Source: Malus domestica (Eukaryota > Streptophyta > Magnoliopsida > Rosales > Rosaceae). Taken from it: a stretch of 64,000 bases of DNA. Location: NCBI RefSeq assembly GCF_042453785.1, contig NC_091677.1, positions 4,187,501 to 4,251,500 on the forward strand. Direction: 5' to 3'. Below the pieces are notes generated by a model. That model saw nothing but the letters and a program-made list of their open reading frames with translations. It made no database searches and had not been told where the DNA came from. This document shows positions 15,707 to 48,139 of the stretch, piece after piece; within the stretch, counting starts at the first letter, position 1; the number at the start of each line of letters is the position of its first letter. The position numbers were made by a program, and so were the translations under genes.

Positions 15707-15714
15707 ATCCTAGC

Positions 15715-16527
15715 TAGGGGTAGAATTTTTTGCTAAATTATCATACCAATCGTACCATATATTTTTGGTACAGTAATGGTATTCAAAACCATTACCAATA
15801 ATATACCGTACCGTACCACTACTGTTAATATTATATCATATATATTCATTTATATATAATTATGTATTATTATCATTATATATGCACTTTATATTTTTTT
15901 CCTAATCATTTATCCAATCATCTCACCCTCTAACCTCTACTTTCCCAATAAAAAAAACCTAAGCCTTCTTGCACTACAACTCTTCATCTTTTCACTCATC
16001 TAGCCATCGATTTCATCTCTATTGGTCCAATTTTGGCGACTCTCTCTCTCCGGAGTCCATCTCATCTTCTCCTTCATCAAATTGGAATGTCTTTCTCCAT
16101 GGCTTTGTCTATCAAGTTAATTTTTGTACAATTTTAAAGAATGTAGAGATGGAATTTAGGAATCTTTGTACTATTTTTTTTAGGGATATGGGTTCTTTCA
16201 GCAATTCTTCCATTTATTTACTTCTTGTTTCTTAAATGAATCTCTATAAAATTCTCATAATTAAATAAAAAAGTTTTAAAAACCCAAGGGGAGTGGCCAA
16301 AACACGTTTGGACCTTGAATTGGGTTGGAAAAAAATATCAAATTTTGGCCCAAAACAAAGTGGTAATTACCATTACCATACCATGTCAACCGAACTATTT
16401 AGCATGCCAAAATTCGGTATACCGAAAGTTTGACACGGTAATAGTAATAGGTTTTGTCATACCAAAAATTTGGTATGGTAATTGGTACATGGGTTTTGGT
16501 AGGGTGATCTTATCAATACCACCCCTA
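15715..16527. mobile_element. Non-autonomous hAT element with 8-bp target duplication
   Basis: An 813-bp element whose ends TAGGGGTAG... and ...CCACCCCTA form the short terminal inverted repeat typical of hAT (CAGGGGTGG-like), flanked by the perfect 8-bp duplication ATCCTAGC (15707-15714 and 16528-16535). The sub-terminal regions are rich in TACCATACC/GGTATGG motifs in both orientations, as expected for transposase binding sites. An 88-codon frame at 15969-16235 has no recognisable domain and the element lacks a transposase. Confidence 0.8.
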
Positions 16528-16535
16528 ATCCTAGC

Positions 16536-17550
16536 TACATAGTCTGCTCCTTTGTTGACCAAAAAGCTTTGAGAACAGAGGTCCCTTTATTTGTGTACAA
16601 GTTAGTAAGCCTGATTAATAATCTAATAATCTCGTTTTCTTGATTTTGCAAACTGTGGAGTGACGGATAATATTTTGTTTGCGGTTTGATTTATTTTTGC
16701 TAATAGTGACTTCTTTGACTTTCTAATACTAAAATCTAATTTTGAAAATATTAAATAAATATACTACCATCGAATCAATATACCCTTCTAAATGAGAGCA
16801 ACGAGAACAATTTTCATAACACGAGTATACAATCATTTTATGATGTAAAATGTCACGATGACAATATATTTCTGCTATGAAAGTCTTCATTCTAAAAAAT
16901 ATTCTAATTGACCCCTATTTATGAATTTATGAGAAGAAATACTATATGTTGTAAAAAGTTCGATAATCTACTCTTAGTTCACGTTCTTGTCTAAACTACA
17001 ATTGTATCATTCATTTTGATATTAAAGAACAGTAATATGGTATTCCAAACTACTCCAATTAACGAGAAGAAATTGAACACAGTGCGGCAATTAAAACAAA
17101 TTTTGTATTGTAGTCCATACCTACTCTATATATATCAAACTAAAAAAAAGTATAGAATCGAACACACAACATTGATCGGATTAAGTATTTGATGTTTTCA
17201 CCTTTACTCTTTGGTTATAGGCATTGGTTTTGATATGACAGTTGTATTTGGCCCAACTGGTCTCCAGGAAAGGGTCCAAGAGAACGAAATTTCTTTCGAT
17301 GCCATTTCGAAGAAAGCTATTTCTGGTTAATTAGTACAACATTCCGACAAAATAAATCTCTAGTTGGAAGTACCCTTTAAACAATAAGACGCGATAAACC
17401 AGCTGAAGTTGTTTTTGTTTTCTCATTGTGTTTTGATGTACCTTACAACATCAGTTACTAATATTGTGAGATTATGGCTTGATCTGCATCTGATTTGTCT
17501 CAACTGAATGCATCTTTGCCTCTAATCTGATCTTGGAAATGAAGGTTTAA
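16536..17550. other. Intergenic between hAT element and UGT 3' end
   Basis: AT-rich and without coding signals. The last 100-150 bp before 17551 presumably hold the 3' untranslated region of the minus-strand glycosyltransferase, but I see no decisive signal. Confidence 0.35.
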
Positions 17551-18942
17551 CTATGGTAGTACCTGAAACTTCTTCCATGTGTCGATGAGAGCAGCGAGAC
17601 TCTTTGTAGAACTACCGTCATCTCCAACCGCCCTTCTAGCCTCGTCTCTAATGTGCAATGCTTGCAACTTCAACAAATCGTTTCCCATTATCTCACTAAC
17701 CGTCTGTGCAATGTCCTCTGCTTTCACCACCGTCTCCCTATCACCCCAACCCCAACTCTTATCCCACGTTCCGAGTCCAATTCTCTCCACCAAATCCGCA
17801 TTGACTTTCTGATCCCCATGTTGCGGCCATGCTAATACGCGCACACCGTTCCAGAGAGCCTCAGACAAAGAGTTCCAGCCACAGTGACTTAAAAACCCAC
17901 CGATGGCCGGATGGCTCAATATCTCCTCCTGGTTCAGCCAGTTCTTCACTGCCAATCCATTTTTCTTCACCCTCTCCAATAATCCCTCTCCAAGCACCTC
18001 AGTCAGTTTCTCGTCATCTTCGATGTCAACTTTCTTATCCTTCACCGCCCACAGAAACCTGCAACCGCTCCTCACCAAGCCATCACCCAACTCTCTAATT
18101 TGCTCCCTGGACATGGCAGTCCTGCTCCCAAAGCTGACATAGAGCACTGACCCAGTTGCTTGATCATTAAGCCATTGCAGTTGTTGGCTTGTCTCGAAGA
18201 AACATGGCGCTAGCGGTCCAATGGAAATTACTGACGGTAGTTTTCTCAATACTTTGCCTTCATTTAGTGCTGCCAAAGTCTCACTCTCTATACTTTCACA
18301 TGTGTTCACCAAAATTCCGCTTGATTCTGTCATTTTCTTACCATTCTCTATGAAAAAGGTCTTCAGCAAATTGTTACTTTCCTGCAGCAGTGGTGGAGGG
18401 ATCCGTGATTTTGGTATTGGCCCCAAACCCGGAACTTGGAGATCATCTTTTATAGTGTGATTAGGGCCAAGCATGGTGTGGAAGGACACATAAAGTGTCA
18501 ACATTTTGGCAGATGATGTGAAGAAAATGTAGTTTGGAAGTCCGAGAGAATCGGTTATAGGAAGAACCGTGGAGGTGAAGCTCATGTCTGTGATCATAGC
18601 GGAGAGAGGTGGAGAGAGTGAAGATAGAAGAGGAGAGAGCAGGTGAGAAGAGCGGCGAATCAATTCAAAATGGTAGTAAAAAGGGTCTTCGGAATTGGCA
18701 CAGGACTCGTCCAGTGGAAGGAGATGAAGTTGCTTTCGAGTAATTTGTGGGAAGGCCATGAGAAAGTTTGACAAACTCTGTGACTCAGCAAGTGAGACGG
18801 TTGGATTTGGAGTGATGAAAGTGACACAAACATCATGTGATGCTAGTAACGCTGCAAGCCGAAGGAAGGGCGTGAGATGACCCATTCCGGCACTTGGAAG
18901 GAGAGCTACATGAGGGACTCGTAGATCACCGGAATCTGACAT
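17551..18942 (-). CDS. UDP-glycosyltransferase, UGT708-like (intact)
   Basis: A family-1 glycosyltransferase that moves a sugar from UDP-sugar to a small acceptor in the cytosol. The start is set at 18942 (MSDSGDLRVPHVALLPSAG); a 19-codon in-frame extension to 18999 is possible but not homologous. From the chosen start it has 463 residues and no intron, the normal size. Seen: the N-terminal GMGH with the catalytic histidine, an ITD that fits the activating aspartate, a DPF motif (EDPFYYHFELIRRS) typical of the UGT708 group, and a complete 44-residue PSPG donor-binding box from WLNQEEI to HGDQ. In the box, GVRVLAW replaces the usual GVPVLAW. UGT708 members include flavonoid and dihydrochalcone C-glycosyltransferases, including one described from pear, so a C-glycosyltransferase role is plausible but inferred. 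It heads unit A of the tandem duplication. Confidence 0.88.
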   Translation of the reverse strand: MSDSGDLRVPHVALLPSAGMGHLTPFLRLAALLASHDVCVTFITPNPTVSLAESQSLSNFLMAFPQITRKQLHLLPLDESCANSEDPFYYHFELIRRSSHLLSPLLSSLSPPLSAMITDMSFTSTVLPITDSLGLPNYIFFTSSAKMLTLYVSFHTMLGPNHTIKDDLQVPGLGPIPKSRIPPPLLQESNNLLKTFFIENGKKMTESSGILVNTCESIESETLAALNEGKVLRKLPSVISIGPLAPCFFETSQQLQWLNDQATGSVLYVSFGSRTAMSREQIRELGDGLVRSGCRFLWAVKDKKVDIEDDEKLTEVLGEGLLERVKKNGLAVKNWLNQEEILSHPAIGGFLSHCGWNSLSEALWNGVRVLAWPQHGDQKVNADLVERIGLGTWDKSWGWGDRETVVKAEDIAQTVSEIMGNDLLKLQALHIRDEARRAVGDDGSSTKSLAALIDTWKKFQVLP

Positions 18943-19299
18943 TTTAATGGAAAATGATGGTTTGCTAAGGGAAAGTAGATTAGCTTTAGAGCAGGGCATA
19001 TTTCATATTTGTACTGATGAAGGCTGAGGCAGGTGCACTGAATGTACATGTGTAGTCAAATGACTCACGTCTATGACCAAAAGATGGTTTGAATATGCAT
19101 ATGCTTAGTCAAATGGGCCACGTCTAGCAGGAAAGGACAAGTAAATATCTAAGTTTTCTTGGATGCCAAGAAAGTTTGAACTAGTAAATTAGAAAAGCGA
19201 CCTACTCAGTTTTTTGCCACAATACTCAGCTAAAAGATTTTAGTTTTAGGAGGTAATCTTAATTTTCAAATTTTTGCTAAGCCAACATCCATACATCTA

Positions 19300-21260
19300 G
19301 GCTCAAATTTTACTTGAAGACGTGATGCAGTTTTAATAGAAAATTATAGCCAAAGGAGGTGGTCTCTGCAAAAATTGATCTTCAGTGTCAAAAAGTGGTA
19401 AATTATTTGTAGAAATAGATTTAGAAACATCTATAAGGACAACACGATTTAACTCGTAATCTCAAAAGATCACACACGGTGATGTCAAAACAAAAAATAT
19501 TTTGCTTGATAAGAAATCTTAAAATATTTGATTGGTGTTGCTCATATTGAAGCTGAGAACACAACGGAAATGACTGGTGAAATTGGTATACCCTTCGATA
19601 AAATGATGCTAGAGATTCTAGATCTTTTAAAATAGAAGATTGTTATGCTCGTAAATTCGCTATTATATATATAATAATTCTCCTTGTTTACATCTTTGTC
19701 TTACTCTTCTATATAGGTTTTACATTATATTTGTGTTTTTGTAGGTTGTAACAAGTAAAGAGTGCAAAATGAGCTAAAAAGGCTTTTATAATCCTATGTC
19801 CTTTTTATTAGCAGTTTTAACCAGTTGAAGAAAGCCAAAAAGTCTGAGAGAAAGTAAATTAAAAGTCTTTTTAATATAATGAGACTTTAAAGCTCATTAA
19901 GCTTGATAAGGAAAAGAAGGCTAATTGCCTTGTCGGTTACAACTAGAAGGGGAATGAAGGAGGATCCCTAATCAGACCAGCAGAAGGGAAGTGAGATACA
20001 AAAAAACAGAAATACAAAAGAGAAAAAAAAGATAGGCAGCAACAGCCACCAAAAAAGAGGAGGCAACCACGACAGAAGGGAGAAAAAGGAAGGACCAATG
20101 CACCGTTCTACAATTCGTCATCGAAGAGTTTCTTCTTCTCCTTTTACTTTCTGTTTTGTTTGTCTTTGCTGTCTATTTACATTATGAGTAACTAAATTTC
20201 ATAGTTGGGACTTGGTTGAAGTCCTAATCATGTTTCCTTGAGTATTTTTGATACACTTTTGTTACAAGATAATTTGTTGATGCTTTAGTGATTAATTTCA
20301 GTTTTAATTCCAATCTTATTGAGTTATTTTATGATTGATCACCATGGAATAACTTTGTAATTGAGTTTGTTACATGGGTAAATTTGGATGATCGAGTCTT
20401 GTACCCATACCGAGTAACAAGAGAACTAGTTACAGTTCTTGGAATTAATTATCACAAATAACCGGAATAGATACCATGTTCTAGGATTCATGTGTTTGTC
20501 GATGTCCATTGTATTATGCTTTCTCGGAGTGTAACTTAGTAGACACCATGCTAAATACTTCGAGAATGAAAAGAGTTAGTGTAGACACTCATGCCTAATT
20601 CGTTGTTTAGGGAAATCAATAGCTTAAAGAGTAGATACCATGCATTTAGATTGACAAACGTAAAGCATCAAAATTTGTTTTGTATCATAGTGTGTATCAG
20701 TTGTTTAGGTGAAAAAGGTTAGAGATGGAAGTCAAAGTCCTAACCGTTCAAACATCGTTTTCAAAACTCTTATTGCCAATTACTTTTATTTGCCTATGTT
20801 CTTTATATTGTGCTTTTATACTTAAACTTAAGACATCTTAAACTATTTTGTTAAACCTTTACTTGCATATTTGCTAGTTTTGTGAATTAATTAATTTAAA
20901 TTGTTAGGAATCATACTCTAGATACATATTAGTGCAATCCTCATGGGAATGATCTCGTACTTGCTTTCTATATTATGTGTTTGATCTTGTGCACTTGTGA
21001 GTTTAAAATGTGCAATTAGTAGCTTAATATTTAGGTTGCTAAATGCATAACAAAGATTGATAAGATGTGATGACTATAGCTTTGACATGTTGCGACATGC
21101 CTTACCAAAACCTTAACTTTGCTAATGTATTACTTGAAGTTTCTTGACAAAGTTACCAGCCATGAATCCCCAGATGTTGGCCAAGTCCTTTAGGAAACAT
21201 CATGAGTAGGTCCTGGGATGTAAGTGTATATAAACGTCCTGAAATCGGCAATGTGTTGAT
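19300..21260 (+). pseudogene. Raf-like MAP3K relic, unit A, split by a solo LTR
   Basis: Decayed pieces of a plant Raf-like protein kinase. At about 19455-19511 a catalytic-loop trace reads SQKITHGDVKTKNILLD (family form SKKIVHRDVKTENMLLD). At about 19534-19600 an activation-segment trace reads GVAHIEAENTTEMTGEIG. After the inserted LTR, at about 21063-21245, the traces are DYSFDM, CCDMPYQNLNFANV and IPRCWPSPLGNIM (family form IPRCCPSSLANVM). Frames shift and stops intervene, and the conserved HRD arginine is lost, so it cannot encode a kinase. The same relic, with the next part of the kinase in a single piece, lies at 25845-26345 in unit B. The decay therefore began before or soon after the duplication. 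Confidence 0.75.
19641..21052. mobile_element. Solo LTR, about 1.4 kb
   Basis: The ends TGTTATGC and GCATAACA are perfect inverted 8-mers, and the 5-bp target duplication AAGAT flanks it (19636-19640 and 21053-21057). There is no internal coding region, so this is an LTR left after recombination between two LTRs. The text near its right end (a GGGAATGATC phrase, then ACTTGC, then CTTGTGCACTTG) resembles 3' regions of plant Ty3-type LTRs, but I cannot assign the family firmly. The element sits inside the kinase relic of unit A and is absent from the matching place in unit B (near 26160). Confidence 0.8.
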
Positions 21261-21899
21261 CATACATTCAAGAATAAGGTGATCAAATTTGGGATATTCT
21301 GCAAGAAAGATTCAGTTGAGGCAATTGTTAGGAACTAATTGGACAAAATTACCATGTTTATGCAACTATTTTCGTAATTTCCCTAAAACCACCCAGCCAA
21401 CGATTGAAAATGAACCATTCTTGATTCCAACTACGTACCATAATCCCTTCACAGGTGGTAAGGATTTCAACGTTAGCATCAATTAGTGTAGTTATTTACC
21501 GTATATACATGAAAACTAACTTTGTATGGCTATGTTAGCTTTGAAATGATTACCGGAAAAGACGAGAACTTTTCGTTTGGTATTATACAAGAAATGGGGA
21601 TGAGTCTTGAGATGCACTTTCAAGTTTGTATGGAAATTCTTTCTGCTCTTATTACTCATTTGGGCTTCACAATTATCTTGAACAAAATCGTCACACCAAC
21701 TATGTGACAAACGCATATTAATTTTTACACATTGTTTACATGACACAATTTTACAACGAAAAACTATGATTCTCATTATTAAAAAGGCGATGACACATCA
21801 ACAATCAGTTCCATAGCCCAACTACAACATATTATATCGAATTTGAGATTGAAAAGTTACATGAAACTTCAACTTAAGAACATAAATTTCAAGGATATA

Positions 21900-23269
21900 T
21901 TAGTTCTTCTGCATCAAATATTCCAAAACTTCATTGAGCACCTTCTCAGATTTCCCACCAATGGCAGTAGCCTTCTTAGCCTCTTCCCCCACCTTCCTAG
22001 CCAAACCCCTCAGCTTCTTATCCTCCATCAACTCAACAATCTTCCTCCCTATCGCTTCCCCACACACCACCCCTCCAAGCCCCCAACTCCAACTCCTCTC
22101 CCATATTCCCAACCCCGCCGTCTCCACCACCTCCGCATTCACGCTCTGATCCCCATGCTGCGGCCACGCCAGCACCGGTACCCCTTTTCGCGCTGCCTCC
22201 ATAACCGAATTCCAACGGCTGCGTGCTCGAGAATGTCCTGCTGGCTCACCCACCCCTTCATTACTACTCCCCTGCCTTTTGTCCTGTCCAAAAACGGCTC
22301 CCCAAGCAGGACTTTCAGATCTTCCTTGTCGTCTTTGTCGACCTTACTTGTTTTGAGCACCCACAAAAACCTATATCCGCTCCTTTCCAACCCATTTGCG
22401 AGCTCTTTAATCTGCTCATTGGACATGGCTGTTCTGCTTCCGAAACTCACGTAAACTACTGACTGTGCCGGCTGGCTGTCTAGCCATGACAGATAGTTTC
22501 CATCTTCATCCTGCTCTTTCTTGGCCTCGAAGGTATCTAACGGTCCTATCGGAAGAAACGGTGGGAGATTTTCTAAAACTCTCCCACTATTTATAGCTGC
22601 TAGAGTATCCGGTTCGAAATCTTCAAAAGTGTTCATTAGGATCCCTTTGGATTTGGAAAAAGCTCGAGAATTTGTGATGAGTAGTGATGTGAAAAAATGA
22701 TTAGGGTTTTTATATGAAGGAGGAATGCTTCCTATAGGCAATGGAGCGATTCCGGGGACGTTGACTTCTTTCAGATCGGTTGCAAAACAGGAAGGGTTCG
22801 ATAGAAGGGTTGGGAGGTAGGCCATGAGGCAGGAAAATCTACATGAGCCGGTAAAGATGATGTAGTTGGGGACGCCGAGGTCGGCGGCGACTGGGGTAAT
22901 AGTAGAAGCCACTACAAAGTCGGAAAATATAGCTGAGACGGGCGAGGATGAGGCGGCAAGCAAAGGGTAGAGAAGGTGGACGGAGCGGGTGGTGGCTTCG
23001 AATTGGAGGAAGAAAGGATCGTCGGTGGTGGGATCGGGGGAGGAAATGGCTTGGAACTCAACGTGGTTGACTTTTGGATGTTGGGATAGGAAGAAGGAAA
23101 TGTGGGCGGACTCAGCGGCCGAGACAGAAGGACGGGCGGTGATTAAGCTGACGATGCAGTTTCGAGAGGAGAGCATGGCGGCGATACCGAGGAAGGGGGT
23201 CAAATGTCCCATTCCAGCACTAGGCAATAGGGCTATGTGAGGAGGAGGAGGAACTGTGGGGTTTGACAT
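21900..23269 (-). pseudogene. UDP-glycosyltransferase, UGT708-like, broken in the PSPG box (unit A)
   Basis: Starts at 23269 (MSNPTVPPPPHIALLPSAG) and reads in frame with the family through the catalytic GMGH, the DPFFLQFEATTRSVHLL region and the start of the PSPG box (WVSQQDILEHAAV). At about 22217, compared with its paralogue at 27092-28487, 25 bases are missing. The loss removes the GGFVSHCG core of the donor-binding box and shifts the frame. The C-terminal part continues in another frame (WNSVMEAARKGVPVLAWPQ...) to the stop at 21900. The uninterrupted frame gives a 376-residue product ending in unrelated residues. Loss of HCGW should abolish UDP-sugar binding. It is the closest relative of the unit B copy (roughly 88-90% of residues alike by eye). 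Confidence 0.85.
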
Positions 23270-23385
23270 GGTTGTGCAAAAGAAGCAAGGATGCCAGAAA
23301 AGTAGCGATTAACAATGAATCCTTAAATCTATCAGAAAAAAGAAGCACGTCACATCTGATCACTTGATAGCGTTGTTATTATTTT

Positions 23386-23577
23386 AGGACAGACATCCCA
23401 GCCGGATCTTCTCCACCAAGTCCTAAGGATCTGAAGATCTGGACTCTTGAAATTTGAATTAACGGTTATAATTATTATCTCTTTTAAAAAGATCATTCTG
23501 TTTGTAGTCGTTTGATTAAATTTTAATGATCCGGATCTCCGAGTCCGTATGATTTAATGGGTGAGATCCGGCTGTCC
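23386..23577. mobile_element. Small non-autonomous DNA transposon present in unit A only
   Basis: A 192-bp insertion flanked by the 8-bp duplication ATTATTTT (23378-23385 and 23578-23585), with inverted ends sharing GGACAG and GCCGGATC. Unit B has the uninterrupted site near 28558-28570 (GTTCTTATTTAATTATAG). The 8-bp duplication suggests hAT. Confidence 0.65.
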
Positions 23578-24213
23578 ATTATTTTATAGCCATCATTTGG
23601 AAAATGAATAGGTTGTCGGTCATGATTCACCAAACCTTGAAACTATAAAGACTTTAGATGATGGAATGCTTCAATATTTTCAACAATGCTTTATTTTAAA
23701 GGAAAACTAATGAAAAGGGATTGAAAATTTTGAGTTTTAATGATAAGGACAAAATAAATGGTAAAGTGAATAGTATCAAGATTGATTTTTTAGTGTAAAA
23801 ATGTGGTTTTTCGTTAAAGTGAACAGTACTTGGTGCTTTTCATTAAAGTTCTCTTCTTAAACTAGTATAATATTAAAAGAAAGATCAAACTCGGGTATAA
23901 ATGCGTGCTTATTGATCTACTGACTTAATGTACATTTGTAATCTATAGCTTTTCATTTGATACTATATAAACGTATAACGCACATCTACTAGCTCATACG
24001 AAGTCAATATATAAAAAATTATCTCAAAAGAAATTTTTACATGTAATGAGGTGCCGTTTTGGTAAGGTCGTTACGAAAAGACATATAAATTAATTTTATT
24101 GACTCTTAGTGTACTTTACTCGGAGTTGTTTGTCAATCTATGATTAGTCAATGTTAAGTGGTATCTATATTAGGGAATAGGTTATATTAGAGTAGTGTAC
24201 ATTATTGACTAAA

Positions 24214-24510
24214 GAGTAATGTTATTCATAGCATGTTTTTGTACCACATTTTCATACCATCTTAGGTGGCATCTGATGTGGAGCCACATCATTTGAAAAA
24301 TTTGTAAAACCCAAGGAAAGGAAAGAGAAAAACTTCTCGTATACCACAATCATCATTTAATTAACTAGTTTTTTTTTAATTATTAGTTTATTAAATAATG
24401 AACTAAATTTAAAAATCTGATTAATTTAAATGATGTGGTTATTCACATCAAATGCCACATAAGATTATATGAAAATGAGGTACAAAAATATAGTATCAAT
24501 AGCATTATTC
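24214..24510. mobile_element. MITE with 9-bp duplication, unit A only
   Basis: A 297-bp element with terminal inverted repeats of about 45 bp (GAGTAATGTTATTCATA at the left, complement of AGAATAATGCTATTGATA at the right) and the 9-bp duplication TTGACTAAA (24205-24213 and 24511-24519). The paralogous stretch of unit B at about 29462-29470 carries a single TTGACTAAA and no insertion, so both ends are confirmed by an empty site. It belongs with Mutator-type MITEs. Confidence 0.85.
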
Positions 24511-24519
24511 TTGACTAAA

Positions 24520-24960
24520 TCAATCACTTTGACCCTATCAAATGAAAAATAAAACCACATGGACCCGACCCAGGTGAATGTAATTTGGTTCTACAAATAA
24601 GCCCAGTGGGCCTCGGAGGTGGCTGAAACCAAGGCCCAAATCGTCGGTAGCTCTGATACATGGTGGAGAAAACGACGTCGTATCAATGATCTATCATCGA
24701 AACGCCACCCGAAGCAAGAAAACAAAGCCCCTTCAGCTCCTCCGGTCTCTGTCCTCCACTCCCCCTCCCTCCGTTTCTCTCTGCTTCCTCCCAACCAAGG
24801 TACTCTCTCTCACACGCTCTCCTATGTTTCTCTCTCTCCAAATGTTTGTGTGCTTTTCGACATTGACAAACATAAGATTTTCAGTTGGAGTTGTTTATGT
24901 CCTTGTCTTTTGGGTTGATCTTAATTTACTTTGATGTTTGTAGATTCCTGGTCCTCCTCC
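24520..24960 (+). pseudogene. 5' fragment of the SpoU methyltransferase gene (unit A)
   Basis: Matches the promoter-proximal region, first exon and start of intron 1 of the complete gene at 29744-31989. It shares the GGACCCGACCCAGGT block upstream, the AAACGACGTCGTAT block, and the exon end TCCTCCCAACCAAG followed by GTACTCTCTCT. The start codon region is rearranged and the exon lacks a clean in-frame ATG equivalent. Beyond about 24960 the match stops and sequence homologous to the UGT at 17551 begins, which marks the junction of the two duplicated units. If its promoter is alive it could yield a short non-coding transcript. Confidence 0.75.
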
Positions 24961-24994
24961 TCCTAAAGGATCAACTGTAGAACAACAGAAAGAT

Positions 24995-25220
24995 ACATGC
25001 ACACCGTTCCAGAGAGCCTCAGACAAAGAGCTTCAGCCACATTGACTTAAAAACCCACCAATGGCCGGATGGCTCAATATTTCCTCCTGGTTCAGCAAGT
25101 TCTTCACTGCTAATCCATTTTTCTTCACCCTCTCCAGTAATCCCTCTCCAAGCACCTCAGTCAGTTTCTCCTCGTCTTCCACATCAACTTTTTTATCCTT
25201 CACAGCCCAAAGTAACCTGA
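24995..25220 (-). pseudogene. Internal fragment of a UGT708-like gene (start of unit B)
   Basis: About 225 bp match the UGT at 17551-18942 over its 17836-18060 stretch, with about 95% identity by eye. They cover the residues before and into the PSPG box (EKLTEVLGEGL..., LNQEEILSHPAIGGFLS). Neither end of the gene is present. It is the truncated counterpart of the intact unit A UGT, cut at the duplication breakpoint on its 3' side and lost on its 5' side. Confidence 0.8.
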
Positions 25221-25844
25221 AAATTAAAAAAGAAATTTGTCATAATTTTCTTTTTTCTGACCATTAAACATTGTCATATTTGACAACGATGAGGTTTTTC
25301 TTAGTAGCCATGCGCCTGGACATCAAACATTAATTTATAACCGCAATTAAAATTTGAAAATTAATTAGCAACACCATCCATACACATGATCATGGAACAT
25401 TGATTTATAACCGCAATTAGCAAGACGAAGAAAACACTAATCAGACATCACTAAACTTGAGATCGTCACTCTGAAATTAATAGAACAAGAGGCCCTGCAT
25501 CCCTTCCAAGTTCCAACCAACGTATGTTCATCATGCAATGCATGATAAATAAACTTGAACTCAAAATTATTAAGATCTTTCCGACCTAAATATATATTAA
25601 TTTAGGGTTTTAGTGTTTTTTTTTTCTTTCTAATTTTACATATATTAAAATAAACAGTTAAATGGATACCTATTTATAATCGCGGTAATACCTATAATCA
25701 TCCATTTTAATTTTACGGGTAAACAATTATACCCATAACCGTTTACTTATCTAAACAATTACTCATAACCGTAATCGTGAATTTTAAATAAACAGATAAC
25801 TACGGTTACCCAAACCCTTGGGTATTATGCTCATCTATACTTGC
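25221..25844. other. Spacer in unit B; possible MITE remnant
   Basis: No gene. At about 25650-25845 a stretch rich in CCGTAACC/GGTTACGG-type phrases (ATAACCGTTTAC, CTACGGTTACCC) resembles an end of a hAT-type MITE, but paired ends could not be set. At 25320-25440 the phrase TTTATAACCGCAATTA occurs twice. Confidence 0.3.
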
Positions 25845-26345
25845 AGGCTCAGATTTTACTTGAAGACGTGATGACTTTTTAATAGATAATGTACCCGTAG
25901 AAGGTCTCCGCACAAAATGTTAGTGTCAAAAAAGTGTTATAATTGTAGAAATAGATTTATAAACATCTACAAGCACAACACGATTTGACGTTTGATGTCA
26001 AAAGATTGTACTTAATGTCAAAACAGAGAATATGTGCTTGGTACTCCTGCAAATCTTAAAGTAGTTCCTTGGGGTTGGTCGTGTTGAAGTTGAGAATCCA
26101 AGGAATATGACTGGTGAAATTGGTATACCGGATACACGGCCCCAGAGATTCAAGACCCTTATAATAAAATATGTGATGTCTATAGCTTTGGCATGTGCTT
26201 ATGAGAAATTTATTGTTGCGACATGCCTTATTCAGACGTTAACTTTACTAATGTATTATGTGAAATTGTTCGTCAAAATTTACAGGCATAAATCCACAGA
26301 TGCTAGGTGTTTGGATGAAATGCATATAAATGTCATGAAATAAGC
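25845..26345 (+). pseudogene. Raf-like MAP3K relic, unit B
   Basis: Homologous to the relic at 19300-21260 but without the solo LTR. Traces in order: NVKTENMCL (catalytic loop, family form DVKTENMLL), GVGRVEVENPRNMTGEIG at about 26072-26130 (activation segment), and at about 26163-26290 NKICDVYSFGMCL then EIYCCDMPYSDVNFTNV and EIVRQNLQA, matching subdomains IX to X of Raf-like kinases. An in-frame stop replaces the conserved tryptophan after FGMCL, the HRD motif is gone and frames change. It is clearly dead, though its subdomain IX stretch is better preserved than in unit A. Confidence 0.78.
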
Positions 26346-27091
26346 GATGTGTTCATCATGCATTCAAGAATAAGGAGATCAAATTTAGGATCAAACGCTT
26401 AGTGTGCATGAAAGATTGAGCTGAAGCAATTGTTACTTAGTAACTAATTGGAGCTCCTCAGAAGAAAGTTGACAAACGCATCTACAATTGTTAGCCTTTT
26501 GACCTTCCCCCGCCATTGACATTGGTTACTCCCAACTGCCCCCCATCATCGACATCTGCAAAATTGCCATGTTTATGCAACTACTTCCGTAACTTCCCTA
26601 AAACCACCAAATGATCGAAATATTCCAGCTACCGTACCACAATCCCTACACCTTCGAACATTGGCATGAATTAGTGTAGTTATTGACCATATAAGGATGT
26701 GAACTTTAAGTTTGTATGGCATGGCAACCCTGAGATGATAACCGAGAAAAGATGAGAACTTTTCCTTTGCATGAAAGAAGAAATGGGGATGGTGAGTATT
26801 GAGATGCACTTTAAGTTTGTATGGGCATTCTTTCTGCTCTTATTACTCATTTTGGCTTCACAATGTTTATGAACAAAATCGTCACACCAACTATGTGACA
26901 AACTTATAAGTAATTTTCACACATTATTTAATGACACCATTTTACGACAAGAAACTATGATTTCCATTATTTGAAAGGATGATCACACATGATAGCCTGT
27001 TCCATAGCCGGACTACAACATATGTATATCCAATTTGAGATTGAAAAGTTACATGACACTTCAACCAAAGTACATAAATTTCAAGGATACA
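26346..27091. other. Spacer between kinase relic and UGT, shared by both units
   Basis: Non-coding here, but clearly related to 21250-21890 in unit A (common phrases such as GTTTATGCAACTA, CAAGTTTGTATGG and ACTATGTGACAAAC), so it belongs to the duplicated segment. A stretch near 26455-26560 present here is missing in unit A. Confidence 0.6.
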
Positions 27092-28487
27092 TTAGTTCTT
27101 CTGCGTCAAATATTCCAAAACTTCATTGAACACCTTCTGAGATTTCCCACCAGTGGCAGTAGCCTTCTTAGCATCTTCCCCCACCTTCCTAGCCAAACCC
27201 CTAAGCTTCTTGTCCTCCATCAACTCCACAATCTTCCTTCCTATCTCTTCCCCACCCACCACCACCCCTCCAACCCCCCAACCCCAACTCCTCTCCCATA
27301 TTCCCAGCCTTCTCCACCACCTCCGCATTCACGCTCTGATCTCCATGCTGCGGCCAGGCCAGCACGGGTACCCCTTTTCTCGCCGCCTCCATAACCGAAT
27401 TCCACCCGCAGTGACTCACAAACCCGCCAACAGCCGCATGCATGAGAATGTCCTGCTGGCTCACCCACCCCTTCACTACTACTCCTCTGCTTTTTGTCCT
27501 GTCCAAAAACGGCTCCCCAAGCAGGTTTTTCAGATCTTCCTTGTCCTCCTTGTCGACCTTACTTGTTTTGAGCACCCACAAAAACCGATATCCACTCCTC
27601 TCCAACCCATCTGAGAGCTCTTTAATCTGCGCATTCGACATTGCTGTTCTGCTTCCGAAACTCACGTAAACTACTGTCTCTGCCGGCTGGCTGTCTAGCC
27701 ATGACAGATAGTTTCCGTCTTCTTCCTGCTCTTTCTTGGCCTCGAAGGTATCTAACGGTCCGATCGGAAGAATCGGTGGTAGATTTTCTAAAACTCTCCC
27801 ACTGTTTATAGCTGCTAGAGTTTCCAGTTCGAAATCTTCGAAAGTGTTCATTAGGATCCCTTTGGACTTGGACAAAGCTCGAGAATTTGTGGCGATTATT
27901 GATGTGAAAAGATGATTAGGGTTTTTTAATGGAGGAGGAATGCTTCCTATAGGCAATGAAGTGATTCCGGGGACGTTGACTTCTTTGAGATCGCTTGCAA
28001 AACAGGAAGGGTTTGATAGAAGGGTTGGGAGGTAGGCCATGAGGCAGGAAAATTTACATGAGGTGGTAAAGATGATGTAGTTGGGGACGCCGAGGTTGGC
28101 GGCGACTGGGGCAATACTAGAAGCCACTGTAAAGTCGGAAAATATAGCTGAGACGGGTGGGGATGAGGCGGCAAGTGAAGGGTAGAGAAGGTGGACAGAG
28201 CGGGTGGTGGCTTCGAATTGGAGGAAGAAAGGATCGTGGGTGGTGGGATTGGGGGAGGAAATGACTTGGAATTCAATGTGGTTGACTTTTGGATGTTGGG
28301 ATAGAAAGAAGGAAATGTGGGCGGACTCGGCGGCGGAGACAGAAGGGCGGGCGGTGATCAAGCTGACGGTGCAGTTCCGAGAGGAGAGCATGGCGGCAAT
28401 GCGGAGGAAGGGGGTCAAGTGCCCCATTCCGGCACTAGGCAATAGGGCTATGTGAGGAGGAGGAGGAGGAGGTGCGGTGTTTGACAT
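27092..28487 (-). pseudogene. UDP-glycosyltransferase, UGT708-like, with C-terminal frameshift (unit B)
   Basis: Starts at 28487 (MSNTAPPPPPPHIALLPSAG). It carries the catalytic GMGH, the DPFFLQFEATTRS motif and, unlike its unit A sister, a complete 44-residue PSPG box (WVSQQDI to PQHGDQ). At about 27307, relative to the unit A copy, five bases are missing. The frame then runs through a glycine/tryptophan-rich tail to a stop at 27201, giving 428 residues. The proper C-terminal stretch (GIWERSWGWG ... NEVLEYLTQKN) is present in another frame, ending at 27092. The lost part forms the helices that close the donor side of the fold. Activity is doubtful but not excluded, and a sequencing or assembly error at the 5-base site is an alternative. 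Confidence 0.8.
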
Positions 28488-28654
28488 GGTGGTGGGAAAG
28501 AGGTAAAGATGCCAGAATAGTAGATTAACAATGAATACTTACATGTATCAGTAGCGTTCTTATTTAATTATAGTCACCATTTGGAAAATGAGTAGATTGT
28601 TAATCACTTGTTTGACCAAACCTTCTCCACAAAATCCAAGGATTTGGTTTTGTC

Positions 28655-28824
28655 CGAGCAGGATTTTCTCTCCTCTTTTTTTTTTTCCTTCTATTTGAAC
28701 AGTCACGATTAAGCCACGTCAATATCTTGTGTTGACTTCTATATAAAGATAGAGAAAGATAAAGCAAAGAGTGAGAGGAGAAGAGAGAATGAGATAAAAA
28801 TAGAACGGGAGAAAATCCTAATCC
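28655..28824. mobile_element. MITE present in unit B only
   Basis: A 170-bp element with AGGATTTTCTC / GAGAAAATCCT inverted ends and the 9-bp duplication GGTTTTGTC (28646-28654 and 28825-28833). The core GATTAAGCCACGTCAATATC shows that it is related to the MITEs at 482-659, 671-865 and about 63070. The matching place in unit A (about 23638-23650, AACCTTGAAACTATAAAG) has no insertion. Confidence 0.75.
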
Positions 28825-28897
28825 GGTTTTGTCAATTATAATGACTTTAGTTGATGGAATGCTTCAATTTCTTCAACAATGCTTTATTTACTGTCTT

Positions 28898-29345
28898 ACG
28901 TAACCGATTTAATGTACATTTGCAACCTATAGCTCTTTCTTTGATGCTATATAAACTTATAACGCACATCTACTACCTCACCCGACATCAACATGTAGAA
29001 AATTATTCAAAAGAAATCTTTACATATAACAAGGTCTCTTTCATAACGTGACACATTTCATAAGCATATACTTACAAATTAATGACTATGTACAACAATG
29101 CTTTATTATATATTAGTTTAACGTATTGAAAAAAAGATCGAACTCAGGTATAAAGAGGCGTATTTACTGTCTTACCAAACCGACTTAATAGACATTTGCA
29201 ACCTATAGCTTTTTATTTAATACTATATGAACTTACAACGCACATCTATTAACTCACATGATGTCAATACATAAAAAATTATACAAAATAATTTTTTACA
29301 TATAACAAGGTGTCTCTTTCATAACGTGACACATAAATTGGCATA
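28898..29345. repeat. Local tandem duplication of a unit of about 270 bp
   Basis: Two diverged copies, 28898-29065 and 29171-29345, share CATTTGCAACCTATAGCT, ACAACGCACATCTA-type phrases and TTTCATAACGTGACAC. Unit A has a single corresponding copy at about 23925-24090, so the duplication arose in unit B. Confidence 0.65.
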
Positions 29346-29743
29346 AATTAATTTTATCGACTCTTAGTGTACTGAGGGTTGTTTATTAGTCTATGATTAA
29401 TTAATCTCAAGGGGTATTTATTATTACTAATAGGTTATACTAGGTTAGTGTACATCATTGACTAAATCAATCACTTGACCCTATCAAAAGAAAAAATAAA
29501 AAAACAAGGACCCGACCCAGGTTAACGTAATCGGGTTCTACAAATGTGATGGCTGAAACCAGGGCCCAAACCGTCTGTACTTCTGATGCTTGGTATAAAC
29601 GACGTCGTATGGATAAAGTTCTATCATCGAAACGCTATCCGAAACGACATTAAAGCGCCCACAGCTCCTCTGGTGCTGCTGAGCCTCTCACTCTCCGTCG
29701 TCCGCCGCCTTGGCTCCAAAATTACTGCAAAAATAAATAAATA

Positions 29744-29877
29744 ATGAGCGCCTGCAAAACCCTAGTCCGTACATCTCTCTCCTCAATCACCTCCACCCTC
29801 CGAACCAATCGACCCACCGTCTCTCTCCTCCACTCCCCCTTCCTCCGCTTCTCTCCGCTTCCTCCCAACCAAGGTAC

Positions 29878-29909
<32 letters not shown>

Positions 29910-31989
29910 GCTCGCTCGACACTCATACGCACATTTCTAACTCAATTTTGTGATTTGAATTTGAAATTAGCGCTCAGGCTTGCTCCGTACAATGTTCCTT
30001 CGCGGCCGTACGCTTCAATTTCATCCGAAGCAGCCGCCGCAGATTTCACAGACGAAGCTCACTCCGCGGACTCAACCCTAGAACCGCCGGAGAACCCGAC
30101 GCAGGACACCGTGGAGGAGCTTCTGAGGAAGAAAAACGACGTCGCGCGCCTGATGAAAATGGAACGCCGCCACGAGTCCGCGCACCAAACCGGCGGTCGG
30201 TGGTTCCCGTATCTCGACAAGTTCAGCTGCGGTGAAGGTGCTTTTCTCAACAGCGGTGAGGTGCTTGAAGCGGTGGATCCGTATATAATGGATGTGAGGA
30301 AGGAGAAGTTTAGGAAAGTGGTGAAGAATCGGAGCTACGGGGTGTGTCTGGTGGTTGAAGGATTGGGAGATTTCGGCAATGTATCGGCGGCGTTTCGGTC
30401 TGCGGATGCGCTGGGGTTTCAGTCGGTTCATGTGGTATCCTGCGACTCCAAAAGGTGCAACGGCATTTGAGGTGAAAGGGATCTGGTTTTAGTTTAAAAT
30501 TTTGAAAAGAAAAAAAAAACCAGAAAGAAGATTTCTTTTGTTCTAAATTGTTTGTTGGTATGTGGTTGTTTAGTGAATTGGTAATCAGGGTTGGCTTTGT
30601 TTAATTTGTATTAGTAAGTTTAATTGAACTTGTCCGGTTCTTAGTTGTCGAATTAACTTTGTTAACCTCAGCTTGATCTTGTTTCAGATATAGAGACAAT
30701 CGCCATGTCAGTATGGGAGCGGAGAAATGGTTGGACATTGAAATTTGGAACTCTACTGCTGAGTGCTTTGAAGTTCTGACATCGCGAGGGTATCGAATTG
30801 CCACAACGCATTTGGGAACGGACTCGGTAATTATCCACTTTCTTCTGCTGTGTATTTTGTTTGTTTTGAAAAGATGTTCCACAGTTTTAATCTCAAGCAT
30901 GTATCTGAGTTATTCTTCCATTTTTGTATTTTAAGGTGTCTATATACGACATGGATTGGTCTTGCCCAACTGCGATTGTAGTCGGAAATGAAAATAGGTA
31001 TTACAGGTTTTCCTATTTAGTGATCATTATATTTTTCGATATCATCCAAGCGGGTTCTTTGTTCAGTTTTAAGCTGATACACTTTTGTGTCTCTGTGATC
31101 AATATCAAATTTTTGGATATACTTGTACATCTGATGAAGGATTTAGAAATTCAACCAAGAAAAAGTTAATAACATCAAGAAAATTACATCTTAGATATGT
31201 TCTTCCTCGATGTTAATTTGAGTGCAATTTCTAATTTAGGGGAATAAGTGATGAGGCCCTCGCTTTGTCAGATTTGCATTGCAGTATTCCGATGAAAGGC
31301 ATGGTCGACTCTTTCAATGTTTCAGTTGCTGCAGGCCTTCTCATGCACCATGCAGTTTGTGATAGAACATCTCGCCTGGTAACGACTCGACTGTTATTCT
31401 TTCTGTACTGAATAATGCATCCACTCCTGTTATCGTTTTTCTTTTTATTTGGGAATTTGCATTCATGACTATTTTATTCATCTTCATTGCTTGGATTTTT
31501 ACAATGGAAAGGGCATTGACAATAAATTACAAGAAAATCATTAAACCCTACATTTTATGCCGGCTATTGATGTCGTTTTGGAAATTCATTCTGAACTTTA
31601 TATATGTGCAATTGAACTTCCATTTTGCATTGCATTATGTTAAGCCAGAATCAGTTTTCAACCCTCTTTTCTTCCCTCATTCTTCTACAATCATGTGTCT
31701 ATGGGTCAAGACTACAGCAACATTCATGTCAAAGTTCGTATCAAGCACTAGATAATTTGCAACTCAATTTCACTATATCGTACAAAGCAGCTGTGTGCTT
31801 ACTCAAGTTTCAAGCATTAGATGTTAATATTTGTTGCACACAAATATACAGGGTAGCCATGGGGATCTAACATTTGAAGAGAGCCAAATTCTACTAGCTG
31901 AATTCTCTCTGCGGCATAGCAAGAGTTCAATCAGCATCGCACGCGAGTATGTAAAGAGGAAGGCATCTCTGCTCACGTCAAAGATTTGA
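29744..31989 (+). CDS. SpoU/TrmH-family RNA 2'-O-methyltransferase, organelle-targeted
   Basis: Transfers a methyl group from S-adenosylmethionine to a ribose 2'-OH of tRNA or rRNA. Predicted exons: 29744-29873, 29971-30454, 30688-30826, 30936-30997, 31241-31378 (this end could be one base off), 31852-31989; about 363 residues. The first about 65 residues (MSACKTLVRTSLSSITSTLR...) are rich in Ser, Arg and Leu and poor in acidic residues, like a chloroplast or mitochondrial transit peptide. The three SPOUT motifs are visible: GNVSAAFRSADALGF (motif 1), AIVVGNENRGIS (motif 2) and IPMKGMVDSFNVSVAAGLLMH (motif 3, whose Asn-Val-Ser binds the cofactor knot). I recall the Arabidopsis counterpart as At5g15390. 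The exact RNA target is not known. The gene ends unit B of the duplication, and its 5' end is duplicated at 24520-24960. Confidence 0.88.
29882..29911. repeat. CT microsatellite in intron 1 of the SpoU gene
   Basis: A run of about 13-15 CT units directly after the donor of exon 1. The unit A copy has a much shorter run at the same place, which shows length change since duplication. Confidence 0.85.
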
Positions 31990-33879: not shown

Positions 33880-34002
33880 AATGTCAAACTTGATATATAG
33901 GGTTATCAAGTCCCCAATCTAACCATCATCACATAAACACTTCATTAATTAAAATCTTCTTCATTTCATTTCCAAACTCCGATCCAATAATCCAATAATC
34001 CA

Positions 34003-35538
34003 ATGGCATTGAAATTCATTCAAGTTTGCGGGGTAGCTCCACAACCAGGCTCACCGGCCACCTCGGCCATCCCTGCTCAAGGAGAGAAACTTATGTACGA
34101 TGGAGATGTCACTCCATCAGAAGCAATATCTCAAGTCAATCACATTATGCCGGAGGACTCGTCTCTTCCTCTAACCTTCATTGACCTCGTATGGCTAAGG
34201 TATCCACCCTTCCATCGCCTTTTCTTCTATGACATATTGCCTTGCTCTTCCCCGGCAGATACCCTACTCTTCTTTCATTCAATAATTATTCCAAAACTCA
34301 AAACCTCTCTCTCTATCGCCCTCCAACATTTTCTACCTCTAGCCGGAAACATCACTTGGCCCGAAAGCTCCCCCAAACCCACCCTAAATTATGTCAAAGG
34401 CGACACCGTTTCCCTCACAGTAGCTGAATCTGAAGCCGATTTCCACCATCTCTCAAGCAATGACTTTAACATTGATGCCAAAGAATACCACCCTCTTGTA
34501 CCCCAACTGGCGAAATCTGACGAAAAAGCCGCCGTGATGGCGTTTCAAATCACCGTCCTTCCCAACAGCGGCGGCTTTTCCATTGGAATATCCATGCACC
34601 ATGCAGTTGTTGACGGCAAGACTCTCTTCATGTTTCTGAAATCATGGACCCACATATGCAAACATGTTCATAAATCTGATGACATTGTTTTGCCTGATCA
34701 GCTAAAACCATTTTACGACAGAAGGGTTCTGAAAGACCCCATCTGTCTCCAACTGGAAGAGATTTACTTGAACCAGTTTCTGAACATGGACAGACGACAA
34801 AATAATCGAAGCTTGAAGGTTGCAGCCCGCTATGAATCTCTAGTGATATCAAATTCAACTCGGGGCAACTTCGAATTCACGAGCGCAAAGATTCAAGCTT
34901 TACGGAAATGGGTCAGGACAAGGAAACAACAGGAAGGAGATGATGGATCCGTTCATTTGTCGACATTTTCTCTAACGTGTGCCTACACATGGGTTTGCTT
35001 ACTAAAAGCCGAGAAAGAAGAGCAAGAAGAAGTAAACGGGGACGAAATAATACCTATGGCATTTAGCGTGGACTGCCGGTCGCGCTTAACCCCTCCTTTG
35101 CCTGCAAACTATTTTGGAAACTGTGTAACGGGCTGTCGAGCACTTGCAGAAAGAAAAGGACTTCTAGGAGAAGACGGGTTGGTTGTAGCGGTAAATGCGA
35201 TTAGTGAAGCCATTACGGGTTTGGATGGTGGGACTTTGACGAATGGCGCGGAGAATTTGGTTTCCAAATTTTACCCTTCTGATGAACAGACTGGTAGTGG
35301 TGCTGGTCATCGGAGAGTATTTACAACCGCTGGATCGCATCGGTTTGACATGTACGATACTGATTTTGGATGGGGAAGGCCAAGGAGCACTGAAGTAGTT
35401 CGGATACATACAATCGGAATAATCACTTTTGCAGATGGCAAGAATGGTGGCGGAGCTGTTGACATCGGGTTGGTTTTGAAAAAACATCATATGGAGGCTT
35501 TCGCTTCACTATTTGCTAAAGGTCTTGAAACCCTTTGA
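34003..35538 (+). CDS. BAHD acyltransferase 1 (malonyl/aromatic acyltransferase type)
   Basis: A cytosolic enzyme that moves an acyl group from a CoA thioester (often malonyl- or hydroxycinnamoyl-CoA) to a hydroxyl, usually on a flavonoid or phenolic glucoside. 511 residues, intronless, slightly longer than the usual 440-480 because of an extended N-terminus. The catalytic HxxxD is H200-AVV-D204 within SMHHAVVDGKT, and the structural DFGWG is at residues 454-458. LPLAGN at about 111 and the NYFGNC stretch fit the anthocyanin/phenolic-glucoside acyltransferase clade. It is followed by a tandem copy at 37662-39203 about 92% alike at protein level by eye. The shared leader (FHLIQVC-like FIQVCGVAPQPG) supports the ATG at 34003. 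Substrate cannot be read from the sequence. Confidence 0.9.
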   Translation: MALKFIQVCGVAPQPGSPATSAIPAQGEKLMYDGDVTPSEAISQVNHIMPEDSSLPLTFIDLVWLRYPPFHRLFFYDILPCSSPADTLLFFHSIIIPKLKTSLSIALQHFLPLAGNITWPESSPKPTLNYVKGDTVSLTVAESEADFHHLSSNDFNIDAKEYHPLVPQLAKSDEKAAVMAFQITVLPNSGGFSIGISMHHAVVDGKTLFMFLKSWTHICKHVHKSDDIVLPDQLKPFYDRRVLKDPICLQLEEIYLNQFLNMDRRQNNRSLKVAARYESLVISNSTRGNFEFTSAKIQALRKWVRTRKQQEGDDGSVHLSTFSLTCAYTWVCLLKAEKEEQEEVNGDEIIPMAFSVDCRSRLTPPLPANYFGNCVTGCRALAERKGLLGEDGLVVAVNAISEAITGLDGGTLTNGAENLVSKFYPSDEQTGSGAGHRRVFTTAGSHRFDMYDTDFGWGRPRSTEVVRIHTIGIITFADGKNGGGAVDIGLVLKKHHMEAFASLFAKGLETL

Positions 35539-37610: not shown

Positions 37611-37661
37611 CTTCATTAAAAAGTTGTTCATTTCATTTCCAAACTCCAATCCGATAATCCA

Positions 37662-39203
37662 ATGGCAGTGAAAGTCATTCAAGTTTGCAGGGTAGCTCCA
37701 CAACCTGGCTCGTCGGCGGCCTCGGCCATCCCAACTCAAGGAGGGAAACAAACTTACGATGGAGATGCCGCTATGTCAGAAGCAATATTCCAAGTCAATC
37801 ACGCACTGCCGGCTCAAGATTACTCGTCTCTTCCTCTAACCTTCATTGACCTCCTATGGCTAAGGTATCCACCCTTCCATCGCCTTTTCTTCTATAACAT
37901 ATTGCCTTTCTCTTGCCCTGCAGATACCCTACTCTTTTTTCATTCAATAATTATTCCAAAACTCAAAACCTCTCTCTCTCTCACCCTCCAACATTTTCTC
38001 CCTCTAGCCGGAAACATCACTTGGCCCGAAAACTCCCCCAAACCCACCCTAAATTATGTCAAGGGCGACACCGTTTCCCTCACAGTAGCCGAATCTGATG
38101 CTGATTTCCACCATCTCTCAAGCAATGACTTTAACATTGATGCCAAAGAATACCACCCTCTTGTACCCCAGCTGGAGAACTCTCACGAAAAAGCCGCCGT
38201 GATGGCGTTCCAAATCACCGTCTTTCCCAACAGCGGCGGCTTTTCCATTGGAATATCCATGCACCATGCAGTTGTTGACGGCAAGACTCTCTTCATGTTT
38301 CTGAAATCATGGACCCACATATGCAGACATGTTCATCAATCTGATGACGTTGTTTTGCCTGATCAGCTCAAACCATTTTACGACAGAAGGGGTATGAAAG
38401 ACCCCATCTTTCTCCAACTGGAAGAGATTTACTTGAACCAGTTTCTGAACATGGACAGACAACAAAATAATCGAAGCTTGATGGTTGCAGCCCGCTATAA
38501 ATCTCTAGTGATATCAAATTCAACTCGAGGCAACTTCGAATTCACGAGCGCAAAGATACAAGCTTTACGGAAATGGATCATGGCCAGGAAACAACAGGAA
38601 GGACATGATCGATCTGTTCATTTGTCAACATTTTCTCTAACGTGCGCCTACTCATGGATTTGCTTGCTAAAAGCAGAGCAAGAAGAGCAAGATGAAGTAA
38701 AAGGGGACAAAATAATACCTATGGTAATTAACGTGGACTGCCGGTCGCGCTTAACCCCTCCTTTGCCTGCAAACTATTTTGGAAACTGCGTAACGGCCCG
38801 TCTAGCACTTGCAGAAAGAAAAGGACTTCTGGGAGAAGATGGGTTGGTTGTAGCGGTAAATGCGATTAGTGAAGCCATTAAGGGTTTGGATGACGGGAGT
38901 TTGATGAATGGCGCGGAGAATCTCGTTTCCAGTTTGTACCCTTCTGATGAACAGACTAGTAGTGGTGCTGGTCATCGGAGATTCTTTACAACCGCTGGAT
39001 CGCATCGGTTTGACATGTATGATACTGATTTTGGATGGGGAAGGCCAAGGAGCACCGAAGTGGTTCGGATGCATACAGTCGGAACGATCACTTTTGCAGA
39101 TGGTAAGAACGGCGGCGGAGCTGTTGACATCGGGTTGGTTTTGAAAAAACATCATATGGATGCTTTTGCTTCTCTATTTGCAAAAGGTCTTGAAACCCTT
39201 TGA
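37662..39203 (+). CDS. BAHD acyltransferase 2 (tandem copy)
   Basis: 513 residues, intronless, a tandem duplicate of the gene at 34003. It keeps the catalytic SMHHAVVDGKT and the YDTDFGWG motif, with no internal stop or frameshift, so it is probably active. Differences cluster in the N-terminal 50 residues (two inserted residues near QDYSSLP) and in surface loops such as KKQQEGHDRSVH; CRVAPQPGSSAA replaces CGVAPQPGSPAT. The upstream region differs strongly from gene 1 because it has been duplicated again, so expression may have diverged more than catalysis. Acyl donor and acceptor are unknown; anthocyanin or phenolic-glucoside malonyltransferases are the closest families I know. Confidence 0.9.
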   Translation: MAVKVIQVCRVAPQPGSSAASAIPTQGGKQTYDGDAAMSEAIFQVNHALPAQDYSSLPLTFIDLLWLRYPPFHRLFFYNILPFSCPADTLLFFHSIIIPKLKTSLSLTLQHFLPLAGNITWPENSPKPTLNYVKGDTVSLTVAESDADFHHLSSNDFNIDAKEYHPLVPQLENSHEKAAVMAFQITVFPNSGGFSIGISMHHAVVDGKTLFMFLKSWTHICRHVHQSDDVVLPDQLKPFYDRRGMKDPIFLQLEEIYLNQFLNMDRQQNNRSLMVAARYKSLVISNSTRGNFEFTSAKIQALRKWIMARKQQEGHDRSVHLSTFSLTCAYSWICLLKAEQEEQDEVKGDKIIPMVINVDCRSRLTPPLPANYFGNCVTARLALAERKGLLGEDGLVVAVNAISEAIKGLDDGSLMNGAENLVSSLYPSDEQTSSGAGHRRFFTTAGSHRFDMYDTDFGWGRPRSTEVVRMHTVGTITFADGKNGGGAVDIGLVLKKHHMDAFASLFAKGLETL

Positions 39204-48045: not shown

Positions 48046-48139
48046 ACAAACAGCTAAAAATTGTGCTTCTGAAAAATGTTTTCGTCGACAAAACTCGAAT
48101 GGCACAAGTGTCGTATGTTTTTGTGTTCCTTGAAAGCCT

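Follow-up and report, generated by a model that had tools for sequence, protein, structure and literature searches.

A putative tandem segmental duplication at a C-glycosyltransferase-like locus of apple chromosome 17, with both edges in introns

Results

A repeated block and its junction on chromosome 17

We analysed a 64-kb stretch of chromosome 17 of apple, Malus domestica (C17:4187501-4251500, hereafter the window), in which a block made of a UDP-glycosyltransferase gene (UGT-A), a relic of a Raf-like kinase gene, a second UDP-glycosyltransferase (UGT-B) and the start of a SpoU methylase-like gene is present twice. The repeat appears to be an old tandem segmental duplication. Homology between the two units is collinear through coding and non-coding sequence alike, and their junction joins SpoU to a piece of a left-hand neighbour, an SCCPDH-like gene. 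This agrees with a first-pass annotation of the window, which had proposed such an event from the letters alone. Leaving its date aside, a block duplication with its junction at 24837/24838 is very probable.

Unit 1 and unit 2 were compared by a self-BLAST of the window and by a more sensitive alignment run. Self-BLAST gave nine same-strand rows, of which eight are strictly ordered, and all four blocks were recovered twice in the same order and on the same strand. The expected collinear diagonal between 17-25 kb and 25-32 kb is thus present. From left to right, the ordered rows pair 17835-18064 with 24993-25222 (91.3%), 19286-19592 with 25832-26129 (76%), 21088-21343 with 26214-26452 (69%), 21344-23335 with 26559-28551 (87%, score 2455, the longest at 2,033 columns), 23584-23638 with 28568-28624, 23641-23696 with 28834-28889, 23863-24213 with 29114-29466 (76.5%) and 24511-24746 with 29458-29674 (75%). 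Since the E-values of the rows run from 1e-6 to 0, chance can be excluded. The ninth row (23919-24052 with 28903-29035) breaks the order because unit 2 carries a small internal repeat (28885-29056 with 29161-29334). The count leaves out the old cross-matches between UGT-A and UGT-B (17725-18149 with 27257-27676 and 17744-18151 with 22081-22463, 65-68%). The sensitive run lengthened the collinear ladder and added 24745-24838 with 29819-29913 (87%), a fragment of SpoU exon 1 and intron 1. Homology stops in SpoU intron 1 at 29913, so that 29914-31989 lies outside the repeated unit.

The spacers had also been said to match, which holds in part. Identity between the units was taken from 29 non-coding windows, each with about 100 aligned sites and drawn from alignments that partly overlap: 18 showed 75-86% and three were higher. 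Eight were lower, however (57-74%, partly poorly aligned), and unit 1 carries an extra insert at approximately 19641-21058. The 13 coding windows of UGT-B showed 90-96%.

The junction had been placed at 24960-24995, where SpoU intron sequence was thought to meet UGT coding sequence directly. This is about 120-160 bp too far to the right, because the SCCPDH gene had been overlooked. The SpoU match ends at 24838 and the SCCPDH match begins at 24837; from there to the UGT-A fragment lie 158 bp of this fifth gene (24838..24995, plus strand), comprising the end of its intron 1 and the start of its exon 2. Genome searches, which covered 651 Mb in 19 contigs, matched 24837-24919 and 24913-24995 to SCCPDH intron 1 and exon 2 on chromosome 9 (C9) at 80% and 87%, at places 38 bases apart. 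A reading of 24838-24995 as SpoU intron was rejected, as the complete SpoU gene contains nothing that matches the segment. The edge at 24993-24995 instead marks a later deletion, about 1.2 kb long when measured against C9 (places 29811 and 30983 of the C9 stretch aligned here), which took the remainder of SCCPDH and the C-terminal portion of UGT-A away from unit 2.

An intact SCCPDH-like gene of 457 aa is found at C9:3983498-3985452, and its exon 1 carries a match to the saccharopine dehydrogenase NADP-binding domain (PF03435, E 7.2e-13). On that chromosome a single match, C9:3985364-3986425, spans the SCCPDH tail and the adjoining UGT-A relic. In the window, a C-terminal SCCPDH tail (17227..17341, plus strand) likewise adjoins the UGT-A gene of unit 1: 17242-17481 matches the end and 3′ flank of the C9 gene at 87%, and 17227-17341 matches a second SCCPDH tail on C17 at 88%. 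Left of 17225 the flank is unrelated, the left part of this gene having been lost. As SCCPDH adjoins UGT-A in both places, the unit would have run from SCCPDH intron 1 to SpoU intron 1, with the junction at 24837/24838. When SCCPDH exon 1 and intron 1, together with the first 241 bases of exon 2, served as query in a DNA search, which is blind to more distant paralogues, 19 rows were obtained, the only full-length one on C9. The other 18 rows are partial: 14 cluster within a single 176-bp exon 1 piece, and relics on C17 account for three of the four left over.

The junction is unlikely to yield a translated fusion of SpoU and SCCPDH. SpoU exon 1 has 130 nt and SCCPDH exon 1 has 681 nt, which by manual working gives the two introns different phases, and a manual reading past the join meets a stop at the eighth codon.

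Two observations on SCCPDH stand apart. The 176-bp exon 1 piece (about 8605-8780 of C9 locus L011) recurs, whole or in part, in 14 other genomic places at 78-94%, and the rest of the gene lacks such genome-wide recurrence. In addition, the left flank of unit 1 together with the SCCPDH tail (14449-17341) recurs about 43-44 kb upstream (C17:4157.6-4161.6k, pieces of 79-96% identity), which means that the left edge was also involved in a further local duplication.

Two other origins of the repeat were considered. It is most improbable that two haplotypes of one locus were placed end to end by the assembly, and nothing was found in favour of this view: the window contains no N and both copies lie on one contig, they are only 87% identical over 2 kb, each carries insertions and lesions of its own, and the junction links SpoU to a piece of SCCPDH. 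Duplication of the UGTs gene by gene is somewhat easier to imagine, as UGT-A and UGT-B are themselves old paralogues (45-50% protein identity) and a pair of BAHD acyltransferase genes next to the block arose by a separate tandem duplication, which marks the site as one that duplicates often. It is nevertheless unlikely, since the duplicated spacers, kinase relic and SpoU upstream region keep the same order in both units and a single junction accounts for them all.

Age of the duplication

Chromosomes 9 and 17 form a pair that stems from the whole-genome duplication of the apple tribe. The segment 39495-56595 of the window has a collinear partner on C9. In contrast to C17, C9 shows one unit only, and this is largely decayed. 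Its order, a relic UGT-A followed by a 63-bp piece of UGT-B and then BAHD, fits the ancestral order proposed below.

In 134 windows of 60-100 aligned sites, C9 and C17 showed a median identity of 91% (lower quartile 87%, 5th percentile 81%). The weakest C9-C17 rows, presumably intergenic, gave 16 windows at 73-85%. As the spacers and UGT-B windows of the two units span roughly the same identities, the block duplication seems to date from about the time of the chromosome 9/17 split or from somewhat before it. Gene conversion of UGT-B, considered because its coding windows exceed most spacers, is not needed to explain the contrast: UGT-A of unit 1 is as similar to the C9 relic (88-96%), and the weakest C9-C17 rows are as low as the spacers.

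For a finer dating, 230 bp are common to the UGT-A copies of unit 1 (UGT-A1), unit 2 (UGT-A2) and C9; UGT-B1 and UGT-B2, the UGT-B copies of the two units, and a related sequence on C16 served as root. The best tree joined UGT-A2 with the C9 relic (bootstrap 91, 200 replicates), and the approximately unbiased (AU) test gave p 0.031 and 0.046 against the alternative trees. Across 213 sites, 14 unite UGT-A1 with C9, 13 unite UGT-A1 with UGT-A2 and five unite UGT-A2 with C9, UGT-A1 being the slowest branch. Four of these five could be polarised as derived, the three outgroup sequences agreeing with UGT-A1. At third codon positions, UGT-A1 differs from C9 at 7/72 and from UGT-A2 at 14/72, and the remaining pair differs at 15 (sign test p 0.12). 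Under a clock, the split of UGT-A1 and UGT-A2 would therefore be older than that of the chromosomes. Because both signals argue against UGT-A1 and UGT-A2 being closest relatives, the older date is favoured, and this short alignment suggests that the duplication probably predates the chromosome 9/17 split.

Several points weigh against this reading and the ancestral order that goes with it. The date depends on a single 230-bp piece, in which UGT-A1 is equally close to UGT-A2 (91.3%) and to C9 (91.1%), two of the four derived sites that UGT-A2 and C9 share lie next to each other, and the Kishino-Hasegawa (KH) and Shimodaira-Hasegawa (SH) tests do not reject the alternative trees (p 0.072 and 0.078). 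The signal from all sites and that from third positions differ as to which copy C9 retained. If the C9 UGT-A is the second copy, its place next to an intact SCCPDH calls for one more crossover on C9. SpoU was not seen on C9 between UGT-A and BAHD, and its ancestral place is taken from the two C17 units. Finally, a simulated null that also counted changes on the UGT-A1 branch was rejected as a dating test, because the share of runs with at least five sites common to UGT-A2 and C9 varied from 1.7 to 92% with the branch lengths.

The same block duplication could instead be younger than the 9/17 split and confined to C17, the likeness of UGT-A2 and C9 being parallel change in dead genes. We regard this as possible, if the less probable date. 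It needs no collapse of an array to explain the single unit beside an intact SCCPDH on C9, and it sits well with the equal identities and with the p of 0.078 in the KH and SH tests. On the other hand, the AU test speaks against it (p 0.046), as do the four shared sites that could be polarised (the one within a CpG is a transversion), and third positions do not group UGT-A1 with UGT-A2.

The UGT genes

As had been claimed, one UGT is intact. UGT-A1 (17551..19002, minus strand) has an unbroken frame of 483 codons with start candidates at Met 2 or Met 21 (PF00201, E 3.3e-16), and the remaining copies in the window are broken or fragmentary. UGT-B1 (21900..23269, minus) is broken by a 25-base gap inside the sugar-donor box, as its alignment with UGT-B2 shows, UGT-A2 is a fragment (24993..25222, minus), and UGT-B2 (27092..28487, minus) has lost its frame near the C-terminus. 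In inner coding windows, the two UGT-B copies are 91.5-93.5% identical without gaps.

UGT-A and UGT-B are predicted to belong to the plant C-glycosyltransferase (UGT708-like) group, which includes MiCGT, GgCGT, SbCGTa and UGT708C1. The best PDB chain for UGT-A1 is 7va8 (E 5.2e-159 over 452 residues), followed by GgCGT, and the 14 distinct solved chains with E no higher than 1e-100 are all named CGT, UGT708 or UGT13, 7va8 itself being a UGT13. PMC12658608 lists 7va8 as mango MiCGT, and a Trollius CGT, considered as the closest solved UGT, was therefore rejected. UGT-A1 also shares with this group the DPF motif (SEDPFYYHFE) and the PSPG or sugar-donor box (HCGWNS..WPQHGDQ). In PMC12658608 the C-glycosyltransferase motif is written 'DPF (FL)'. 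UGT-A1 differs in that it reads DPFYY, without FL after DPF, whereas UGT-B1 and UGT-B2 both read DPFFL. Unlike the known enzymes, the UGT-B copies are broken, and C-glycosylation by UGT-A1 is a prediction from sequence.

A genome search with UGT-A1 gave 90 matches from 88 of 405 candidates, those that were scored. Six places reach 45% identity, the next best having 39%: the four in the window, the C9 relic with seven TGA and one TAA, and a frame-shifted copy at C16:4556860-4558184. Among these six, UGT-A1 is the only unbroken one. A genome search with UGT-B2 (95 matches) gave no further UGT-B. Three UGT matches on C12 (22679457, 22693077 and 22706697) have equal scores and a spacing of exactly 13,620 bases, which points either to a tandem triplication of very recent date or to an artefact of assembly.

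The SpoU gene and the kinase relic

One SpoU gene is complete, also in agreement with the first-pass annotation. It lies at 29744..31989 (plus strand) and encodes 363 aa in six exons, the last ending at 31989, with GT-AG introns (PF00588, E 4.4e-35). The repeated unit ends on the right with the sequence upstream of this gene, its exon 1 and the first part of its intron 1 (29458..29913, plus), and unit 1 retains the upstream region with a truncated exon-1/intron-1 fragment (24511..24837, plus). A whole-gene DNA match is found at C7:26049160-26051393 (86%). Fragments of the SpoU 5′ end, starting at most 15 bases from the ATG, occur on C2 (two), C3, C11, C13 and C17 (21.7M), and later parts on C5; capture by a mobile element is possible.

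The kinase relic resembles Raf-type kinases (PF07714, E 3.4e-5; B-raf chains top the PDB list). In unit 1 its first part (19286..19647, plus) is 74-76% identical to 25832-26178 of unit 2 and matches kinase genes on C13 and C16, the nearest ones in the genome. The second part (21088..21343, plus) is 69% identical to 26214-26452 and contains two parental exons 18 bp apart. Both parts are separated by the insert mentioned above (19641..21058, approximate), a multicopy element of about 1.4 kb that is absent from unit 2, where the relic (25832..26452, plus) carries no large insert. Alignment showed that the unit 2 relic lacks, at 26152 to 26157, a parental intron of about 3.1 kb (C13) or 1.4 kb (C16), and that the unit 1 relic lacks the next one, of about 0.2 kb, at 21141 to 21159. 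Each absence was aligned in one unit and the other two cases were judged alike by eye. As the introns of its nearest relatives are missing, the relic appears to be a processed copy of a Raf-like kinase gene, and its presence in both units would place it before the block duplication. The element inserted in unit 1 has at least 75 match rows genome-wide (40 scored candidates). Three near-equal copies on C11 (30494219, 30516834 and 30539416), spaced by about 22.6 kb, represent a recent triplication or an artefact.

Flanking genes

To the right of the repeated unit lie two BAHD acyltransferase genes, at 33991..35538 (plus, PF02458) and 37620..39203 (plus), which are 92.7% identical without gaps and represent a tandem duplication separate from the UGT-SpoU block. 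Among PDB entries, those nearest to the second gene are anthocyanin acyl- and malonyltransferases. On C9 the BAHD copy is broken, with no frame longer than 233 aa. Arrays of direct repeats were observed at 46924-48046 and 32711-32975 (219-, 152- and 159-nt families and a 131-nt pair).

Discussion

We propose that the ancestral locus would have carried a rightward SCCPDH, a leftward UGT-A, the retrocopied kinase relic, a leftward UGT-B, a rightward SpoU and a rightward BAHD. One unequal or illegitimate exchange may then have joined SpoU intron 1 to SCCPDH intron 1. This would have given two head-to-tail copies of everything in between, as the observed junction and collinearity suggest, and the copies would have decayed independently afterwards. 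Unit 1 has kept UGT-A and lost SpoU past exon 1, unit 2 has kept SpoU and lost most of UGT-A, and UGT-B has died in both by different lesions. C9 retains an intact SCCPDH beside relics of UGT-A and UGT-B.

A wider scenario can be put forward only tentatively, and we consider it doubtful as a whole. In it, the array predates the doubling of the apple tribe and loss was split over C9, unit 1 and unit 2, leaving a single survivor each of SCCPDH, the C-glycosyltransferase and this SpoU copy. UGT-A1 would be the only working C-glycosyltransferase of its clade in apple and would form a small pathway cluster with the flavonoid-malonyltransferase-like BAHD genes. As to substrates, PMC9787340 describes phloretin as found especially in apple leaves, and PMC12658608 describes its C-glycosylation by GgCGT, a relative of UGT-A1.

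Among the titles and opening lines of abstracts retrieved on apple or Malus C-glycosyltransferases, UGT708, nothofagin, the UGT family and homoeologous chromosomes, no title names this locus. Searches joining UGT708 with Rosaceae, or apple chromosome 17 with whole-genome and tandem duplication and UDP-glycosyltransferase, returned no paper.

The locus resembles other tandem segmental duplications followed by fractionation in plant genomes: it has head-to-tail collinear copies, a single junction and independent decay, and it likewise keeps at most one working copy per gene. In principle nothing sets it apart from them; its edges, each in an intron of a different gene, can still be read. The event thus belongs to an ordinary class, tandem segmental duplication with loss divided among the copies, though it is unusually easy to read, and neither the locus nor its single intact C-glycosyltransferase-like gene changes the understanding of such events. 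What it offers is an example, at base level, of the tandem duplication of a block with both edges in introns of different genes, and of loss divided between tandem and homoeologous copies. For apple, it indicates a single intact C-glycosyltransferase-like gene in this genome.

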